DNA of 64,000 bases, taken from NCBI RefSeq assembly GCF_007558725.1, contig NZ_VLPL01000001.1, positions 311,984 through 375,983 of the forward strand, in the 5' to 3' direction. Source of the stretch: Fluviicola chungangensis (GTDB lineage: Bacteria > Bacteroidota > Bacteroidia > Flavobacteriales_D > Crocinitomicaceae). Positions 42,754 to 50,699 of the stretch are shown piece by piece. The stretch's first letter is position 1; every line of letters starts with the position of its first letter. Below the pieces are notes generated by a model, which saw only the letters and a list, made by a program, of their open reading frames with translations, searched no databases and had not been told where the DNA came from. The translations under genes and the position numbers were made by a program.

Positions 42754-45273
42754 TCACTTCAACAAATTCACATGACCATGAACCACTTCCCTTTCACTGT
42801 TCCAAATAGAACCAAACTCAATTCGCCAAATATAAATTCCATCCGAAACCAATTCATCGTGATACGTGCCATCCCACCCGACTTCCGGATCATTTGATTC
42901 GAAAACCACTTCTCCCCAGCGATTGAAAACCAGGAAATTGAAATCAGCAGGATCAACTCCGTAAGCAAAAACAGGACGAAAGACCTGGTTGAACTCATTC
43001 CCATCCGGTGTAAACGTATTCGGGACGTAGTAAATACTTCCGCCTTCCATGTAAATAACCCCATACGCAATATCACTGCAACCATCTTCATTCGTAACAG
43101 TTAATGCAATTCGATACGAACCAAATGCATTCGGAGAATAACTGTGAGCCGGTTCAAAAAGAGTTGAAAAGGTATTATCACCAAAATTCCATTCATACTG
43201 ATTCCCACCTACCGAATTGTTGATCATGGTAGTCGTTGAATTCTCATCATTCAAAATTGCGGGTACAGGCGAAAATAATGCTGTCGGAGAAGCCGATACA
43301 CAAATGAGCGAGTCAAAATCCATTGTATCAACACAACCGCCACTCGAAGTTACTTCCAGAGACAGGTCATAACAACCCGGATTGTCAAATATCACAGATT
43401 GATTTCCGCACCCGGAAATGGTCGTTCCATCCGAAAAAGTCCAGGTAGAAGAAGTACAATCGGTTGTTGTATTATTGAACGAAACAGTCAAAGGGGCACA
43501 ACCGGAAGTTACGGAAGGATTAACTGAAATGACCGGAAAAGGATTCACCGTGACCAATACACTGTCCGTAGCCGTGCATTCCCCGTTGGGACTTACAGCA
43601 ACTACTGTGTAAACAGTTGTCATTTGTGGGTAAAATGGTTGATCATTAACAACGCCGTTATTCCAGCTCATTACAGCATTGTTACTCATTGAGAAAGCGT
43701 GCAACAGGACATTTTCTCCGCTACAGATCGTTTGGTCTGGCCCCGCGTCTATACTTAAATTATTCAGGTTAACCGAAATGGTATCTCTGGCCGAACAACT
43801 CGTCGGACCATAAACTACGGAAAGCCAATAATCCCCGGAAGTAGAAACCGTTATATAAGGAGTGGTTTCACCGGTAGACCACAAATAAGAAGCTGCAATA
43901 ATAGTTGTGGTTATCGTGACGCTCTCTTCGCACACTTCGATATCCGGACCGATATTAATTGAACTAAAAGGCACGGTACTTTCCGGAAAGCCTATATTAA
44001 AAGAATAAAGCGGCCCCCACTGACCGGCAGTCGCTCCATAGGGCTGTTGAGCACAATTGGAATTGTTGGATATGTTAATTCCCGGATCACCGGGAACGAA
44101 TGAAGTGGTTACATTGGCTGCAGGAAGTACACTTCCTGAAAATTGGATCGCACCGGTTCCACCTCCACCGCCAGGACCAAAACAGGATGGATACGTCGTC
44201 TGTATATCCCCTCCGTTACCACCATCCACGCGTAAGATCACATTTCCGCTGAATGCATTTACATCCAAAGCAATAGTGCCACCTGCGCCGCCGCCGCCAG
44301 CACCATCTCCAATCGTATTGGGAACGGAAACAACGTTTTCACCACACGATTCGATAATCATATTATTGGATAGGATTGTTGCCGCACGAATCAGAATGAT
44401 CCCTCCTCCGTTTCCTCCGGCACTTCCCGCTCCGTCATTAAAATCAGGAGATCCGCCTCCGCCTCCCATGAAAAGTCTTCCGTTACTGTAATCCAATGCA
44501 GTCCCACCTTCTCCACCGACAGGTTGTTGCCCGCAAAAAAATGCCTGATCGCCACCCCGTCCGCCTTTGGTCCCATTGGAACCGCCACCGCCACCTGTGT
44601 TGTGCTTATTTCCGCCGCCACCGCCATTTCCCAGTGCGCCACGACCTCCATTCATGGTAAAAGGAACTTCTGCAATTCCTTCTCCTTTTTGAGCTCCGTA
44701 ACCGGATGCAACCGGATAAAAGTAATCAGGAAAATTACCGCACCCTCCATCCGGATTTAATGATGAAAATGAACCGTTAAACCCTTTCCCGTTCAATGAA
44801 ACAGGCGCGTTTAAAGTCAATGTTCCGGAAACTTCCATTACCAAAACACCACCGGTACTTCCATTCCAACCCTGAGCCGTCAACGTGCCCGTAACTGTAA
44901 CATTGGTATACTGAGGAACACGGATAAGCTGCACATAGCCAGTTACTTCATAGGTATTTAACAATCGGTATTGAAACGAAACCGCATTTCCCGAAATCGA
45001 TGAAACAGTTGCAAACTCATAACGTCCGCAATGGTGGTAATCTGTTATCGTGCCGAAAGCCGGTGTATTGCCGGTATTAATCTCTGCGCCTTTCATTTGA
45101 ATAATCAGTACACGGTCTCCAACTGAAAGAAAAGAAGTGTTCTGCACTTCAATCTGATTACATGAAATACTGGTCACAGGTGTGTACTGATTAATCACGC
45201 CGGAAATTTGCGCATGAATTCGGTTGAATAAACAACTTGAGAAAATAATTAGAAAAAGAAACCAAAATTTCAT
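42754..45273 (-). CDS. T9SS type B (gliding-motility C-terminal) surface protein with PKD-like repeats
   Basis: An 839-residue secreted protein. A signal peptide occupies about 1-21. Residues about 100-410 form a glycine-rich region (GGGGG-containing turns near 225-385) like a beta-helix. PKD-like domains cover about 430-740, one with YEWNFGDNTFS. The C-terminal 90 residues are the gliding-motility-associated T9SS type B domain: PNTFTPDGNEFNQVF, NRWGEVVFES, WDG and a closing GHVNLLK. It is likely displayed at the cell surface and may act in adhesion. It is monocistronic. Confidence 0.88.
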   Translation of the reverse strand: MKFWFLFLIIFSSCLFNRIHAQISGVINQYTPVTSISCNQIEVQNTSFLSVGDRVLIIQMKGAEINTGNTPAFGTITDYHHCGRYEFATVSSISGNAVSFQYRLLNTYEVTGYVQLIRVPQYTNVTVTGTLTAQGWNGSTGGVLVMEVSGTLTLNAPVSLNGKGFNGSFSSLNPDGGCGNFPDYFYPVASGYGAQKGEGIAEVPFTMNGGRGALGNGGGGGNKHNTGGGGGSNGTKGGRGGDQAFFCGQQPVGGEGGTALDYSNGRLFMGGGGGSPDFNDGAGSAGGNGGGIILIRAATILSNNMIIESCGENVVSVPNTIGDGAGGGGAGGTIALDVNAFSGNVILRVDGGNGGDIQTTYPSCFGPGGGGGTGAIQFSGSVLPAANVTTSFVPGDPGINISNNSNCAQQPYGATAGQWGPLYSFNIGFPESTVPFSSINIGPDIEVCEESVTITTTIIAASYLWSTGETTPYITVSTSGDYWLSVVYGPTSCSARDTISVNLNNLSIDAGPDQTICSGENVLLHAFSMSNNAVMSWNNGVVNDQPFYPQMTTVYTVVAVSPNGECTATDSVLVTVNPFPVISVNPSVTSGCAPLTVSFNNTTTDCTSSTWTFSDGTTISGCGNQSVIFDNPGCYDLSLEVTSSGGCVDTMDFDSLICVSASPTALFSPVPAILNDENSTTTMINNSVGGNQYEWNFGDNTFSTLFEPAHSYSPNAFGSYRIALTVTNEDGCSDIAYGVIYMEGGSIYYVPNTFTPDGNEFNQVFRPVFAYGVDPADFNFLVFNRWGEVVFESNDPEVGWDGTYHDELVSDGIYIWRIEFGSIWNSEREVVHGHVNLLK

Positions 45274-45410: not shown

Positions 45411-46763
45411 TTATTCGTATACTCCTTCCAAATCACTGCGTTCGTGCTTAGGTATCCGGAACAGCATCACTAATCCGACTACAAAGAAGAACGCCACAGA
45501 AACGACTGAAAAGCGCATGTCATCGAAAATAATTTCCATTGTTCCGAAAAACAAGGTACCCGTTACGATACCGATCTTTTCTGTCGCATCATAAAAAGAA
45601 AAATAACTTGCGTGATCTTCTGTTTCAGGTAGAAACTTGGAATACGTAGAACGAGCCATTGCCTGCACACCTCCCATTACCAAACCGACAGTTGCTGCCA
45701 ATGCATAAAACTGAACCGGCGTTTTAATAATAAACGCTGCGCAACAAATTCCTATCCAAATCACAATAGAGATTCCCAATGTCCGGATATTCCCGATACG
45801 TCTTGAAAGTCGCGACATGATAAATGCACCTCCGGCACCTAATAACTGAATGAGCAAAATAGCAATGATCAATCCGCTGTCATCCGGCTTCCCATCTTTT
45901 ACAGGCCACAGAATTTCCTTTTTCGCAAAAAAAGTGGCCATCAACATCACGGTTTGTACCCCTGTATTGAAAAAGAAAAATGCCGTCAAGTATTTCTTTA
46001 AACGGATAGTTTGTCTGAATTCCATGAAAACGTGCCGTAATTCCCGGAACCCTTTCCAGATATACCCTTTTTCCTTCGTTTCCTTTCTGACGGAATTCGG
46101 AAGTACGCGGTAGGTGAATTGGGAGAATAATAACCACCAGATTCCTACAAGAACGAAACACCATTTTGCTTCAAGGGTCTTTGTTTGGATTAGTACTAAA
46201 CAAATAATTAATAGGATCATAGACCCAATATATCCCATAGAAAAACCTCTTGCCGATATTTTATCGTGATCTTTCGGTTCGGCAATTTCCGGCAGATAGG
46301 CATTGTAGAAAACCAAACTGTTCCAGAAACCTATGCTGGCAAAGAACAAACTGGTCAGTCCCAGTTCTATTTTAGCCGGATCAAAGAAATAAAGCGTCAT
46401 ACAGGATGCCGCACCCAAGTAACAGAAAAACTGTAAAAAGCGCTTCTTATTTCCCAAATAATCTGCGATTCCGGACAAAAAAGGCGAAAAGAAGGATACA
46501 CACAAGAACGAGGCAGAAAGCACAAAACTCATCAAAGCCGTATTGGACAGTTCCCAACCAAAGAAATTCACGGTGACATTTACGCCATCCGGCAAACTTT
46601 GAGTTTCCAGATAACCGTGAGTCTCCTTGAAATGTTTTGTTGTTACGTTATCATAGAAAATCGGGAAGATGGCAGATGAGATCACCAGGTTGTAGACGGA
46701 GTTTGCCCAGTCATACATGACCCATCCCCTGATAACTTTTTTGTCGCCTTTCTGTATCGCCAT
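45411..46763 (-). CDS. UMF1/Atg22-type MFS transporter
   Basis: A 450-residue major facilitator protein of the UMF1 (Atg22-like) type, with about 12 hydrophobic helices. The start MAIQKGDKKVIRGWVMYDWANSVYN (quoted in part) has the YDWANS motif found in this subfamily, and an MARSTYSKFLPE motif near 371. Fungal Atg22 exports amino acids from the vacuole; the bacterial substrate is unknown. It is the last gene of the five-gene minus-strand operon, 9 nt after the dehydrogenase gene, so it may export or import what that operon makes. Confidence 0.8.
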   Translation of the reverse strand: MAIQKGDKKVIRGWVMYDWANSVYNLVISSAIFPIFYDNVTTKHFKETHGYLETQSLPDGVNVTVNFFGWELSNTALMSFVLSASFLCVSFFSPFLSGIADYLGNKKRFLQFFCYLGAASCMTLYFFDPAKIELGLTSLFFASIGFWNSLVFYNAYLPEIAEPKDHDKISARGFSMGYIGSMILLIICLVLIQTKTLEAKWCFVLVGIWWLLFSQFTYRVLPNSVRKETKEKGYIWKGFRELRHVFMEFRQTIRLKKYLTAFFFFNTGVQTVMLMATFFAKKEILWPVKDGKPDDSGLIIAILLIQLLGAGGAFIMSRLSRRIGNIRTLGISIVIWIGICCAAFIIKTPVQFYALAATVGLVMGGVQAMARSTYSKFLPETEDHASYFSFYDATEKIGIVTGTLFFGTMEIIFDDMRFSVVSVAFFFVVGLVMLFRIPKHERSDLEGVYE

Positions 46764-46772
46764 AGCAGGGTT

Positions 46773-47996
46773 TTAAGCTGTCACCTGATTGACATAATCA
46801 TTCAGGTATGCAAAGTAAGAAGTTAAATTTCCATTCAAATCCGTTTCGGAACCTCTTCCAATGATATTATCCGGATCATCGCCGAATAAATGAGGGAAAA
46901 CAGATTTGATCAATTCGTTTCCAAAATCCTCCGAAGCATCTTTCGGTAATTCGCACGGCAGGTTATCTACTGCCATTACCATGATCGACCCTTCTTGTTT
47001 CCAATCGCATTCCTGTCGTGTTTCCGGATCGTACCCGTAAAACGGATCTGCAATTTTGGAAGCCCGCAGTGTGGATGCAATCGGTCCCTGGATATCACAG
47101 GAAACATCCGCAATCACCTTGATCTTGTTTTTATCGGATCTCAAATCCGAATCGGTGAGAATGAACGGTGATTTATTGCTCCAGAAATGACAGGCAACAT
47201 ACACGTCTGCCTCTTCAGAATATCTTTTGAAACTGGATTCATACAGCTCCGGTGTCGCATAAAATTCCTGCTTAACGAACGGTTTCCCGTCTTTACGTCG
47301 GTAGTAATCTTCGATTTCCAAATGTGTAAAAACCGGCGTGTCAAATTTTTCGCTCAGAAATTCTTCCGGGCTCACTTCCGTAAACGGCAAAATATCCATA
47401 ATCTCGCGCGCTCCGTACCCCACTCTTCCAAAACCGGTTAAAACCAGTTTCATGTTTTCAGGAAAAACCGCTTTATGCAATTCGTTTTCCATTTCTTTTC
47501 TGCCTACACATTCATTGGCCGGTTTCAAATGAAAAGTATTTGTTTTTTCTCCGTAGGCACGGATTCCGTTATAAGCACCTACAATTCCGGCATAGCGACC
47601 AAAACCGATAATGCGTTTATTTTCTTTGGACTTCAGAACTTCGTAATCGATCAATTGAATTTTCTTGTCCAGGATCGCCCTTAGTAAATTCCTGTTATAG
47701 GGTTGTTTTTTAATGGTGTGTGAAAAGAACAGGAATTTCTTTCCCGGGATCAGGTCTTCAATATTTACCTCTTTCACTCCCATAATAACGTCACAATCCG
47801 ACAAATCCTTCACCACTTCAATCCCCTCAGCCGCGTACTCTTCATCACTGAATGCACGGATCTCACTTTCCTGAACAAAAACTTTCACTTGTGGAAATTT
47901 CATTTCAACTAACCTGCATTGCTTTGGTGTAAGTGGAACCCGCTTATCAGGCGGCACTTTTCCTTCCCGGATGATGCCTAATTTCACTTGATTCAT
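46773..47996 (-). CDS. Saccharopine/alanine-dehydrogenase-like NAD(P) oxidoreductase
   Basis: A 407-residue enzyme of the alanine-dehydrogenase/PNT/LYS1 fold. The N-terminal half has the AlaDh_PNT-like KLGIIREGKVPPDKRVPLTP motif (about 5-24). The nucleotide-binding region follows near VLTGFGRVGYGAREIMD (about 183), and VIADVSCDIQGPIASTLRAS near 292 carries active-site residues. It may be NAD+-dependent L-lysine-forming saccharopine dehydrogenase or a related amino-acid dehydrogenase. No lysine-2-oxoglutarate reductase gene is adjacent. It lies 8 nt after the KdsC-like gene, in the same operon. Confidence 0.7.
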   Translation of the reverse strand: MNQVKLGIIREGKVPPDKRVPLTPKQCRLVEMKFPQVKVFVQESEIRAFSDEEYAAEGIEVVKDLSDCDVIMGVKEVNIEDLIPGKKFLFFSHTIKKQPYNRNLLRAILDKKIQLIDYEVLKSKENKRIIGFGRYAGIVGAYNGIRAYGEKTNTFHLKPANECVGRKEMENELHKAVFPENMKLVLTGFGRVGYGAREIMDILPFTEVSPEEFLSEKFDTPVFTHLEIEDYYRRKDGKPFVKQEFYATPELYESSFKRYSEEADVYVACHFWSNKSPFILTDSDLRSDKNKIKVIADVSCDIQGPIASTLRASKIADPFYGYDPETRQECDWKQEGSIMVMAVDNLPCELPKDASEDFGNELIKSVFPHLFGDDPDNIIGRGSETDLNGNLTSYFAYLNDYVNQVTA

Positions 47997-48004
47997 GTTG
48001 TTGT

Positions 48005-48688
48005 TTAAAATTCTTTTATTGGTTCGGAAAGCAGAAAATTATCGATAAATTCTCTCACAACACCCGTACCGCCATTTTTTGTTAATACAATATCTACCTC
48101 TTTCTTGACTTCCTGAACGGCATCTTTCGGACACGCGCTCAGTCCAACCTCGCGCATAATGGACAAATCATTGATGTCATCACCAATAATTGCTACCTCA
48201 TTCAAAGTAATGGACAATTCCTCACACCATTGTCTTAGAATCGTAATTTTCTGATCTCTACCGACATAAACTCGAGTTATATTCAGTGTCTCAGCCCTGT
48301 TTCGAACCATTTGATCCGTAAATGCCGATGAAATAATCCCACAAAGCAATCCTTTTTCCTGAGCTTTCATTATACCCATTCCATCTTTGGAATTGTATTT
48401 TTTCACCTGGTCTCCCGATTCTGTATAATACATTCCTCCATCTGTCATGACACCATCCACATCCAGGATTAGGAACTTGATCTTTTCAATCTTGGATTTC
48501 AAATGATCAAAGACAAATAATGGCTTGAACAACAGGGAATAAAAATCAACTTCATACTCCTCTGCTATTGCTTCCAAATCCAGGACAGACAATTCGGTGA
48601 CCCCGTCTATGTCAAAGTCCTTCAGCATCTGATAAAAATCGACCCCGAATTTTGCACAAAGACCTTTTATATTTTGCTCTAAAAACAA
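48005..48688 (-). CDS. KdsC-like HAD phosphatase with N-terminal extension
   Basis: A 227-residue HAD-IIIA phosphatase. Motif I is LILDVDGVMTDGGMYY (about 73-88), motif II holds the serines in GIISSAFTD near 112, and motif III is IGDDINDLSIM near 169. These match KdsC (KDO-8-phosphate phosphatase), with about 65 extra residues at the N-terminus that include two similar pieces, FGVDFYQML and YEVDFYSLL. The start is probably the TTG at 48688, 2 nt after the DAHP synthase stop; an alternative ATG is at 48631. The substrate is a 3-deoxy sugar acid phosphate or a related compound. Confidence 0.82.
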   Translation of the reverse strand: MFLEQNIKGLCAKFGVDFYQMLKDFDIDGVTELSVLDLEAIAEEYEVDFYSLLFKPLFVFDHLKSKIEKIKFLILDVDGVMTDGGMYYTESGDQVKKYNSKDGMGIMKAQEKGLLCGIISSAFTDQMVRNRAETLNITRVYVGRDQKITILRQWCEELSITLNEVAIIGDDINDLSIMREVGLSACPKDAVQEVKKEVDIVLTKNGGTGVVREFIDNFLLSEPIKEF

Positions 48689-48690
48689 GA

Positions 48691-49689
48691 TTATACCATT
48701 TTATATCCAACGCTTGCTGCAATCGGATGAAGTGTTTGTAACAATTGCTTGAATTCCTCATGATTCAATTGCTGGGAAGCATCGGATTTGGCAACTTTGG
48801 GATTCGGATGAACTTCCACCAATAATCCGTCAACTCCCAAAGCAATACATGCCCGGGACAACCCTGCCACACCATATGCGTATCCCATTGCATGACTCGG
48901 ATCCAAAATGACAGGAAGATTTGTATAGTGCTTCAACCATTCCACTCCGCACAAGTCCAATGTAAAACGCGTACCCGTTTCAAAAGTACGTATCCCGCGC
49001 TCACATAGAACTACGTTTTCATTTCCACCGGAAAGAACAAACTCAGCCGCCTGAACAAACTCCTGTAAAGTGGTGCCGAATCCACGTTTAATCAAAACTG
49101 TTTTCTGCGTTTTTGCACATGCCCGTAAAATTCCCTGGTCATACATTGCCTTCGCTCCGACCTGGATCACATCCGCATATTCGATGATTTCATCGATATG
49201 TGTTGCGTCACGCGCTTCTGTTACGACTGCAAATCCATATTCTTCACGCATCTTAGCGAGTAACTTCAATCCTTCCAATCCCAATCCCTGGAAACTGTAC
49301 GGGCTTGTTCTCGGTTTATAACATCCACCGCGAAGTGCCGTTAATCCCAAGGATTTTAGCAATTCGGAAGATTGCCTGATCTGTTCTTCCGACTCAACGG
49401 AACATGGTCCGGAAATTAGAATGGTGTTTCCTGTTTTTCCACCTACCGTTACATCCCCGATTTTCACTTCACGGGTTTCCGGACGGTAATTTCGTGAAGC
49501 CAATTGCATGTCATTGGGAAATACCCAATGCGCTTCAGTCACCGATTCCAAAGCTGCAGGAACTTCTTTCACACCGGATCCGGTTACCAATACATTGATA
49601 CCTTGAGAAACCAGGTGGAATGCTTTGTTTTCTGCAGCCAGTTTAGCTGCTTCAGTTGAATTGACTGATTTTTTTAAATGAATGATCAT
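48691..49689 (-). CDS. aroF: 3-deoxy-7-phosphoheptulonate (DAHP) synthase, type I-beta
   Basis: A 332-residue PEP-dependent aldolase. An N-terminal ferredoxin-like regulatory domain (about 1-70) precedes the TIM barrel with ISGPCSVESEEQ near 91, LRGGCYKPRTSPYSFQG near 119 and DPSHAMGYAYG near 265. The KPRTSP motif is that of erythrose-4-phosphate-using DAHP synthase, not the KANRSS-type motif of KdsA. It makes DAHP, the first shikimate intermediate. It overlaps the epimerase-CBS gene by 4 nt (ATGA). The gene name follows the family; paralogues may exist elsewhere. Confidence 0.9.
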   Translation of the reverse strand: MIIHLKKSVNSTEAAKLAAENKAFHLVSQGINVLVTGSGVKEVPAALESVTEAHWVFPNDMQLASRNYRPETREVKIGDVTVGGKTGNTILISGPCSVESEEQIRQSSELLKSLGLTALRGGCYKPRTSPYSFQGLGLEGLKLLAKMREEYGFAVVTEARDATHIDEIIEYADVIQVGAKAMYDQGILRACAKTQKTVLIKRGFGTTLQEFVQAAEFVLSGGNENVVLCERGIRTFETGTRFTLDLCGVEWLKHYTNLPVILDPSHAMGYAYGVAGLSRACIALGVDGLLVEVHPNPKVAKSDASQQLNHEEFKQLLQTLHPIAASVGYKMV

Positions 49690-50687
49690 ATTTCCCCTTT
49701 AATCAGGTTTACGAATGTTAAGATTCCTTTTGCTTTATTGTTTTGGTCCACAACGGGTAAATAAAGAATCGGGAACGTGTATTTTTTAATTTGCTGCAGT
49801 AAATCATTGACTGTTGCTGTTTCGTGAATTACCAAAGGTTTGGAGTTCATGATTTCAGCAATGGATTCATTGTTCAGATTTCCCCCCGTACGGATTAAAC
49901 TTTTGCGGATATCTGCATTGGAAATCAACCCTCTCAAATTAGTTGTTTCGTCAACAACTAAAGTAAAGCCCAATTTTCCATCTTCCACCGAATTCAACAC
50001 TTCAGATATGGATGCATTCTCCCCCACTGATGGTGATTCTGTCAGCGGAATCATGAAGTCTTTCACCAAAAACTGGGAATCCACATTGCGTTTCGTCAGG
50101 TCCATTAATGCATGTCCCACGCTAGGTGCGTTAAACAAATAAGATCCGGAAACCGAAGTATGAACTCCCATATTCCGTAAAATGAAGGAAACTTCTCCGT
50201 TGACTCCACCATCTACATGTACGGATTTTGACGGGTATTTCTTTTGAAAATCGCGAATTTTCTTGAAGTTTACAGCATCAAAAACACCTCCGCTTTGTCC
50301 GGGAACGGTTGCCATGATCAAAATGAAATCGAAACTGCTGTATGTATCAAATGCTTCGATCGGGGTCGGAGTAATAATTGCCAATCCTTTTTTTCCCTTA
50401 ATATCGGAAGGAATCAACAAGTCCTCTTCCAAATCCTCCAATTGGAACGTTACATATTCCACCGGTACGGCCCGAAGCAAATCGAAATAATTGGATGGGT
50501 TCTTCGTGATGATATGCAAATCGATCGGAATGTTACACCATGCCCGGACCCGGCTGATATCTTCAAAAACAGAAGGGTCATCATTACAATCAACATGAAG
50601 CAGATCCACATGGTGAGCGGCCAAATCTTGGATCGTTTCCGACAGTTCGCGTTTCTTATCCGAATAAATCGAAGCAGATATTCTCAT
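49686..50687 (-). CDS. Ribulose-phosphate-3-epimerase-like domain fused to a CBS pair
   Basis: A 333-residue fusion protein. Residues 1-200 are a divergent RPE-type TIM barrel that keeps the four metal/catalytic residues His31 and Asp33 (HVD), His58 (LHI) and Asp159 (HVDGG). The usual methionines and the NPGFGGQ loop are altered (MATVPGQSGG). Residues about 208-330 are two CBS motifs (LVKDFMIPLTESPSVGENA, EIMNSKPLVIHETATV), which usually bind adenosine nucleotides. RPE fused to CBS is unusual, since CBS pairs normally join SIS-type arabinose-5-phosphate isomerase (KdsD). First gene of the operon. Confidence 0.85.
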   Translation of the reverse strand: MRISASIYSDKKRELSETIQDLAAHHVDLLHVDCNDDPSVFEDISRVRAWCNIPIDLHIITKNPSNYFDLLRAVPVEYVTFQLEDLEEDLLIPSDIKGKKGLAIITPTPIEAFDTYSSFDFILIMATVPGQSGGVFDAVNFKKIRDFQKKYPSKSVHVDGGVNGEVSFILRNMGVHTSVSGSYLFNAPSVGHALMDLTKRNVDSQFLVKDFMIPLTESPSVGENASISEVLNSVEDGKLGFTLVVDETTNLRGLISNADIRKSLIRTGGNLNNESIAEIMNSKPLVIHETATVNDLLQQIKKYTFPILYLPVVDQNNKAKGILTFVNLIKGEI

Positions 50688-50691
50688 AGGA

Positions 50692-50699
50692 CAAAAATA
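50692..50699 (-). promoter_or_regulatory. TAnnTTTG -7 box of the epimerase-CBS operon
   Basis: TATTTTTG (minus strand) ends 4 nt before the ATG at 50687, predicting a nearly leaderless operon mRNA. No TTG at standard spacing. Confidence 0.5.

Follow-up and report, generated by a model that had tools for sequence, protein, structure and literature searches.

A probable substitute for KdsD and KdsA in the Kdo pathway of Bacteroidota

Kdo is the sugar that anchors lipopolysaccharide in the outer membrane. Its synthesis is regarded as near-universal in Gram-negative bacteria, and KdsD and KdsA as its invariable opening steps and as drug targets. The classical pathway runs through KdsD (SIS-CBS), KdsA, KdsC, KdsB and WaaA. 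The window, a stretch of 64,000 nucleotides from Fluviicola chungangensis (family Crocinitomicaceae), contains a minus-strand operon with the same layout of steps: an enzyme with a CBS pair, a PEP-dependent synthase from the broad superfamily that also includes KdsA, and a KdsC-type phosphatase. KdsB and WaaA also are common to both systems. Two differences stand out: an RPE barrel takes the place of the SIS domain, and the synthase falls in a DAHP-synthase-like clade, outside the KdsA clade. The features are as follows.

50692..50699, minus strand: candidate promoter box TATTTTTG, fitting TAnnTTTG, 4 nt before the gene 1 ATG
49686..50687, minus strand: gene 1, RPE-CBS, a Ribul_P_3_epim barrel (residues 1-200) with a CBS pair (residues 205-332); proposed arabinose-5-phosphate-forming epimerase in KdsD's place
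48691..49689, minus strand: gene 2, a PEP aldolase resembling DAHP synthase, in a clade of its own (support 97/97; TIGR01361); proposed Kdo-8-phosphate synthase in KdsA's place
48005..48688, minus strand: gene 3, KdsC/YrbI-type HAD phosphatase (residues 66-222; TIGR01670) with an N-terminal helical domain and a TTG start; proposed Kdo-8-phosphate phosphatase
46773..47996, minus strand: gene 4, lysine-ketoglutarate-reductase/saccharopine-dehydrogenase-like enzyme (AlaDH/PNT_N)
45411..46763, minus strand: gene 5, Atg22/UMF1-type MFS transporter (family match)

An earlier note on this DNA described five genes in a single unit, separated by gaps of -4, 2, 8 and 9 nt. The reading frame coordinates agree with that description, and profile matches confirm the families it named: RPE-like barrel plus CBS, DAHP-type synthase (with the KPRTSP motif it reported), KdsC, saccharopine/alanine-dehydrogenase-like enzyme, and UMF1 transporter. 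Its promoter box at 50692-50699 does match TAnnTTTG, which we take to be the Bacteroidota -7 box consensus; the motif lies near the start codon in 8/8 Fluviicola-type upstream regions (the window and L062-L068) and in one of nine more distant ones. The key to the operon turns out to be another of its points, that the products of genes 1-3 parallel the Kdo pathway. As judged from the sequences, genes 1 and 2, normally together with gene 3, probably stand in for the first half of that pathway.

An altered RPE-type barrel and an altered DAHP-synthase-like enzyme

Gene 1 contains the PF00834 barrel, and scores 72.5 bits against the TIGR01163 equivalog, below its cut-off of 212.6 bits. Fold alignments give 22-27% identity to ribulose-phosphate 3-epimerase (RPE) and to the D-allulose-6-phosphate 3-epimerase AlsE. 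Gene 1 differs from both in having PGQSGG for PGFGGQ, a shortened FVPN loop, and the fused CBS pair; a separate canonical RPE is present in the host genome. Residues H31, D33, H58 and D159, which we take to be the two His and two Asp that serve RPE in metal binding and acid/base catalysis, are retained in 64/64 RPE-CBS rows. Met37, Met68, His90 and PGFGGQ presumably are pocket residues of canonical RPE, and the canonical pocket letters occur in 27/27 canonical RPE. In RPE-CBS the three single positions are changed: Met37 to Asn (62/64), Met68 to Ile (63/64), and His90 to Gln (64/64). The alignments show a barrel in which the predicted catalytic residues are kept and the predicted pocket is remodelled.

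A search of gene 1 for a SIS catalytic domain gave no match at E 0.01; the RPE barrel stands there instead. For the CBS pair, KpsF/KdsD is the best among the CBS-containing NCBIfam models, and all three CBS pairs that the fold search lists belong to arabinose-5-phosphate isomerases; a plain phmmer search with the CBS part places other CBS proteins at the top. Structure 4o9k contains CMP-Kdo. The available portion of PMC3149649 gives no Kdo contacts. The CBS pair probably would sense a late product, for example CMP-Kdo.

Gene 2 scores 319.3 bits with TIGR01361 (DAHP synthase type Ibeta; cut-off 267.75) and 128.4 bits with TIGR01362 (KdsA), below the 314-bit cut-off. The KANR(S/T) motif of KdsA is absent, with KPRTSP in its place, and KPRT(S/T)P is kept in 63/63 operon-type rows. 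Solved type-Ibeta DAHP synthases (T. maritima, P. furiosus, A. pernix) match gene 2 at 257-270 bits, and share with it KPRTSP and the metal-site motifs. They are set apart by a loop that reads GAK(A/S)MYD in all 63 operon-type rows and G(A/S)RN(M/T)QN in seven other FL-type enzymes (GARNMQN in four, GARNTQN in two, GSRNMQN in one). Moreover, the Arg that follows DPSH in 7/7 other FL-type enzymes is found in only 6/63 operon-type rows, with Ala in 56/63; the DPSH loop varies among these rows, and the clade-specific claim is limited to GAK(A/S)MYD. The window synthase has GAKAMYD and DPSHAMGYAYG.

The altered loop aligns with PAFLCRQ of KdsA. According to the available portion of PMC6650799, Pro, Phe and Leu of KdsA line the arabinose-5-phosphate pocket; the assignment of that paper's residue numbering to PAFLCRQ is our own. 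Together, these comparisons show a separate clade in which the loop of the putative synthase has changed.

Conserved gene order and displacement of KdsA and KdsD

Gene order was surveyed at 34 RPE-CBS loci in genome contigs, 32 of which extend at least 1 kb downstream. The synthase gene comes next after RPE-CBS in 30/32, and a KdsC-like gene lies downstream in 23/32. Gene 4 was found in at least 14/32 and gene 5 in at least 10/32, which are lower bounds because several loci end early. Adjacency of RPE-CBS and synthase holds down to 37% RPE-CBS identity, across several Bacteroidota groups. The order is conserved far beyond chance. Co-occurrence of all five families, the survey suggested in the earlier note, thus stands for genes 1 and 2 and usually for gene 3, which is the usual next neighbor of the conserved pair. 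It fails for genes 4 and 5, which turned up in some of the Crocinitomicaceae-type loci and nowhere else in the survey. These two are local additions, or passengers; since they drop out beyond such loci, a single five-gene pathway is rejected.

The bacterial order was sampled through 149 genomes of at least 95% completeness: 87 with RPE-CBS and 62 without. KdsA exceeds its cut-off in 0/87 genomes with the fusion versus 57/62 without it (59 counting two fragmented genes). KdsD at E 1e-20 is found in 1/87 versus 57/62, the latter comprising 38 over the family cut-off and 19 short SIS-only proteins of 160-175 bits. The CMP-Kdo synthetase KdsB, at the same E value, is present in 85/87 and 61/62, respectively. 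The Kdo-transferase (WaaA N-terminal) domain occurs in 65 of the 67 genomes tested: 44/46 with the fusion and 21/21 without, the two lacking it (G041 and G726) both being fusion carriers. The RPE-CBS gene and KdsA/KdsD therefore are almost mutually exclusive, while the downstream Kdo enzymes are kept. Assembly gaps were considered as a cause of the missing genes and rejected, given the completeness of the sample and four single-contig fusion genomes (G343, G344, G355, G401) that lack both KdsA and KdsD. Because most of the 87 fusion genomes belong to a single family, they cannot be counted as 87 separate events. Displacement beyond that family is counted in G545 and G551, from other families of the order, which are without KdsA and KdsD. 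Within the family, G420 and G434 have no fusion and keep an adjacent SIS-KdsA pair; G426, also without the fusion, has a KdsA-type match.

Aligned KdsB sequences (eight versus six by class) are invariant at 58/262 columns, with motifs common to both classes; 20 columns differ between the classes, a difference confounded with lineage.

Several genomes depart from the pattern. In G541, G557 and G563, synthases of this clade occur where RPE-CBS is absent and KdsA and KdsD are present; a synthase by itself thus does not necessarily displace KdsA. The overlap of the G563 synthase gene with a SIS-KdsA-KdsB run, on the other hand, favors a Kdo role. G526 also was scored as fusion-less, but its synthase lies 68 nt from a contig end and its RPE-CBS gene probably is cut off. 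G394 combines the fusion with a weak SIS match (92 bits), and in the metagenome-assembled genome (MAG) G732 KdsA and the RPE-CBS pair coexist. Of the genomes searched for the KdsA family, G615 and G547 lack the fusion as well as KdsA. Outside that search, the family members G515 (98% complete) and G484 (94%) have the Kdo transferase domain with no match to the operon synthase or KdsA type, and G442 (89%) and G521 (84%) have only a match of the DAHP-synthase-chorismate-mutase type.

KdsA over cut-off is also absent from 19 of the 20 genomes behind other RPE-CBS loci; in this set G734 and G343 are one genome, G716 probably corresponds to G333 of the family, and the small MAG G720 gave no match at all. 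The fusion without KdsA occurs also in Saprospiraceae, Chitinophagales and Marivirga. RPE-CBS of Marivirga sericea, which we take to belong to the Cytophagales, is nested among the Crocinitomicaceae (support 99/92 and 98/90), and KdsA is missing from this genome; the operon therefore appears to have entered Marivirga by transfer out of the Crocinitomicaceae, with loss of KdsA. A MAG labelled Betaproteobacteria encodes RPE-CBS, the synthase, and then a cytidylyltransferase fused to a phosphatase of the KdsC/KDN-9-P type.

The proposed route and its rivals

The pair probably replaces KdsD and KdsA, making arabinose-5-phosphate and Kdo-8-phosphate by a chemistry that can be sketched as follows. 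The RPE-type enzyme would form D-arabinose-5-phosphate, most simply by C2 inversion of D-ribose-5-phosphate; this is the known RPE reaction, in which a proton is removed beside the carbonyl and returned on the other face, one carbon up. Ribulose-5-phosphate is an alternative substrate. To our knowledge, no RPE-fold enzyme has D-ribose-5-phosphate 2-epimerase activity. Condensation of arabinose-5-phosphate with PEP by the DAHP-synthase-like enzyme would yield Kdo-8-phosphate, to be dephosphorylated by gene 3 or by the KdsC already resident; KdsB would form CMP-Kdo; and WaaA would transfer Kdo to lipid A.

The earlier note envisaged diversion to a 3-deoxy-heptulosonate product, aminated or exported. 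The survey lends this no support: RPE-CBS sits where KdsA and KdsD are absent and KdsB and the transferase domain are kept, which makes Kdo, or something very near to it, the most likely product. A different ulosonic acid (such as a Kdo epimer, or a C7 acid built from tetrose phosphate after epimerisation) replacing Kdo in lipopolysaccharide, with KdsB and WaaA having followed, is unlikely. KPRTSP is a DAHP-type motif, and by our reasoning the barrel could act on erythrose-4-phosphate, because its C2-phosphate distance equals that of C3 in ribulose-5-phosphate; in G732, moreover, where the pair accompanies KdsA, it comes with a separate cytidylyltransferase, which might point to a second sugar. 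Yet KdsB still exceeds its cut-off and retains its motifs, the Kdo-transferase domain persists, and the CBS pair looks KdsD-like by NCBIfam and the fold list, if not by phmmer ranking.

Supply of aromatics, also raised in the earlier note, would mean that a second epimerase, under CBS control, and a second DAHP synthase raise erythrose-4-phosphate and DAHP. The synthase does exceed the NCBIfam DAHP-synthase cut-off with KPRTSP intact. This reading is rejected as very improbable because the host has a separate DAHP synthase-chorismate mutase, which adjoins trp-like and EPSP-synthase-like genes (neighbors named by eye); a canonical RPE also is present, and loss of KdsA and KdsD would be left unexplained. 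Least credible of all is that the genes are chance neighbors and that other, unknown genes stand in for KdsA and KdsD at another site. The lineage specificity of genes 4 and 5 and the three genomes that pair the synthase with KdsA speak for it, but RPE-CBS and synthase adjoin in nearly every locus surveyed, in several Bacteroidota groups, and also after transfer to Marivirga.

Kdo synthesis thus remains the preferred function. A fuller version is offered tentatively, as somewhat short of an even bet: RPE-CBS is a D-ribose-5-phosphate 2-epimerase checked by CMP-Kdo through its CBS pair, and with a DAHP-synthase-derived Kdo-8-phosphate synthase makes up a second, independently evolved Kdo route, which has supplanted KdsD and KdsA on several occasions within Bacteroidota, in part through horizontal transfer. 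Among the papers listed from the open-licence PMC literature, none dealt with replacement by such a pair; the displacement suggests a so far undescribed route. If correct, the Kdo route was reinvented in one family and scattered relatives; two new enzyme activities would be added, many genomes in which these genes are annotated as RPE and DAHP synthase would need correcting, and the case would illustrate the exchange of a whole pathway section as a cassette of two genes.

Gene 3, gene 4 and resident counterparts

Gene 3 scores 145.1 bits with TIGR01670 (cut-off 106.95), and its HAD motifs (D76, D78, K147, G169-D171) are invariant in 15/15 sequences. It shares these catalytic motifs with KdsC and with KDN-9-phosphate phosphatase (B. 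thetaiotaomicron type), whose model is its best NCBIfam match at 160 bits, below the 180-bit cut-off. Unlike them, it has an extra N-terminal helical, HTH-like domain: HTH_3 matches relatives L205 (23.1 bits; gathering threshold 23) and L212 (14.3 bits), whereas the window copy gives no HTH match. A second, canonical-type KdsC persists in all 14 genomes of the genus, which may make gene 3 redundant.

Among solved structures, gene 4 is closest in sequence to alpha-aminoadipic semialdehyde synthase (8e8t, 1.8e-35), presumably over the lysine-ketoglutarate-reductase half of that protein, and gene 4 looks like an enzyme of lysine metabolism.

The operon and its core

The 4.27 Mb genome that contains the window has its relatives in Fluviicola and other Crocinitomicaceae. 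The earlier note had described a five-gene operon, and the window sequence bears this out: the five reading frames, their gaps, and the upstream box are all as described.

50687-49686, minus strand: gene 1 (RPE-CBS), a ribulose-phosphate-3-epimerase (RPE)-type barrel with a CBS pair
49689-48691, minus strand: gene 2, type-Ibeta DAHP-synthase-like enzyme
48688-48005, minus strand: gene 3, KdsC/YrbI-type phosphatase
47996-46773, minus strand: gene 4, relative of alpha-aminoadipic semialdehyde synthase
46763-45411, minus strand: gene 5, Atg22/UMF1-type transporter

Gene 4 presumably corresponds to the lysine-ketoglutarate-reductase half of its relative; in Crocinitomicaceae this lysine-metabolism-like enzyme (window 46773-47996) is encoded in the same run as Kdo-type genes. 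Downstream on the operon's strand, 42754-45273 encodes an 839-aa protein that, by eye, looks secreted and has glycine-rich stretches and a gliding-type C-terminus.

The fusion, RPE-CBS, was matched at E 1e-25 in 217 of 240 family genomes, and in 145 of the 151 good ones. Across the order, 208 of 399 genomes matched, six of them outside Crocinitomicaceae; in a phylum-wide sample (296 genomes), the matches listed hold the full-length fusion in at least two, both Crocinitomicaceae. Gene order was counted in 34 loci from named genomes, of which the 32 with at least 1 kb downstream were used. The synthase directly follows RPE-CBS in 30 (exceptions: L073 and L080), and a KdsC-like gene lies downstream in 23. 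Gene 4 is present in at least 14 and gene 5 in at least 10, lower bounds because several loci end early. Both are missing next to the Marivirga, Saprospiraceae-type, and other distant RPE-CBS copies, and two Crocinitomicaceae members, G356 and G401, lack them as well. This leaves genes 1 and 2, then 3, as the core.

Under the title Glaciecola amylolytica THG-3.7, the complete chromosome CP034120.1 (L066) carries the entire Fluviicola-type neighbourhood at 65-93% protein identity, at coordinates identical to those of G343, from the window's own genus; the record is apparently mislabelled. In draft genome G346 (L064 11023), the synthase match lacks the first 74 residues, perhaps an assembly fault.

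KdsA and KdsD in genomes with and without the fusion

These genes are best read as a substitute, two to three genes long, for KdsD-KdsA(-KdsC) of the classical Kdo pathway. We consider the replacement itself quite probable; ribose-5-phosphate 2-epimerase as the RPE-CBS chemistry is a tentative assignment. No replacement of this kind appeared among the papers listed when open-licence literature was searched in full text.

The sample comprised 149 genomes of the order, at least 95% complete: 87 with RPE-CBS and 62 without, according to matches from the 399-genome survey, in which all 149 are taken to be included. KdsA scored above cut-off in none of the 87 versus 57 of the 62; among the other five, G569 and G609 have a fragmented KdsA, in G526 a contig end truncates a synthase, and G547 and G615 have none. 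At E 1e-20, KdsD matched in one of the 87 (G394, 92 bits, under cut-off) versus 57 of the 62 (38 above cut-off and 19 short SIS-only proteins, 160-175 bits); it was not found in G526, G535, G547, G582, and G586. At the same threshold KdsB is retained in 85 of 87 (not G493 or G551) and 61 of 62 (not G603). Of 67 genomes, 65 have the WaaA N-domain: all 21 without the fusion and 44 of the 46 that carry it (the exceptions are G041 and G726).

Fisher values (about 1e-34 to 1e-38) were computed ignoring shared ancestry and are not a measure of strength; the weight of the case is its repetition across lineages. G420 and G434, in Crocinitomicaceae, have no fusion and keep SIS-KdsA; G545 and G551, from other families of the order, have the fusion and neither KdsA nor KdsD. 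KdsA above cut-off was not found in 19 of the 20 genomes behind further RPE-CBS loci (completeness not stated), which include some titled Saprospiraceae and Chitinophagales, and Marivirga sericea DSM 4125; among them, G734 and G343 are the same genome, G716 probably duplicates the family's G333, and nothing at all matched in the small MAG G720. Marivirga is nested within Crocinitomicaceae in the 64-row RPE-CBS tree (99/92 and 98/90), and in the synthase tree its sequence groups with that of G300 at 100/100. Together with the absence of KdsA, this nesting reads as a probable gain of the cassette (genes 1 and 2) and loss of the old gene.

Housekeeping counterparts are encoded at other sites of the genome. 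A DAHP synthase-chorismate mutase stands next to genes resembling trp genes and EPSP synthase, and there are also an RPE of canonical type and another KdsC-type phosphatase. Each of genes 1-3 thus has at least one further member of its broad family in the genome.

Ulosonic-acid contexts and exceptions

In G563, SIS, KdsA, KdsB, and then a synthase-clade gene form one overlapping run. MAG G732, labelled Betaproteobacteria, has the pair before a fusion of a cytidylyltransferase with a KdsC/KDN-9-P-type phosphatase:

L094 8387-13809: putative CMP-ulosonate locus of G732, with RPE-CBS, synthase, cytidylyltransferase-phosphatase fusion, and RraA-like gene

Both settings tie the pair to activated ulosonic acids. 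The G732 locus comes after a gene for a 536-aa protein that matched no family; G732 also carries KdsA, on a contig equal in G+C (0.60) to the pair's. This looks like a separate CMP-ulosonate locus alongside a normal KdsA. G563, G541, and G557 have synthase, KdsA, and KdsD and no RPE-CBS; with G732, they indicate that a genome may contain the synthase alongside the classical route and that the product could differ in some hosts. Neither the operon synthase nor a KdsA-type match was found in family members G515 and G484, or in the less complete G442 and G521. The Kdo transferase domain is nevertheless present in G515 and G484, which represent either assembly gaps or a third solution.

The synthase and the phosphatase

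The 26 rows of the synthase clade group together (97/97), separate in the tree from KdsA and from DAHP synthase-chorismate mutase (each 100/100). All 63 aligned operon-type synthases have GAK(A/S)MYD, where seven other FL-type enzymes have GARNMQN (four), GARNTQN (two), or GSRNMQN (one); KPRTSP occurs in 62 and KPRTTP in one. The residue after DPSH is Ala in 56, Arg in six, and Ser in one, versus Arg in all seven others. In the alignment, the GAK loop falls opposite PAFLCRQ of KdsA. Pro110, Phe112, and Leu113 are reported to be situated in the arabinose-5-phosphate pocket, and loop L7 to aid binding of that substrate (PMC6650799). We infer that these residues are letters of PAFL, and that the DPSH loop is the counterpart of L7.

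The HAD motifs of the gene 3 family are unbroken in 15 of 15. A structure model of the window's gene 3 has four N-terminal helices, each of at least four residues, and the domain search found no helix-turn-helix match in this copy. KdsC-type phosphatases in L205 (9079-9750) and L212 (10160-10834) are fused to a Cro/CI-like helix-turn-helix start (HTH_3, 23.1 and 14.3 bits, respectively); such a fused phosphatase is possibly also a regulator.
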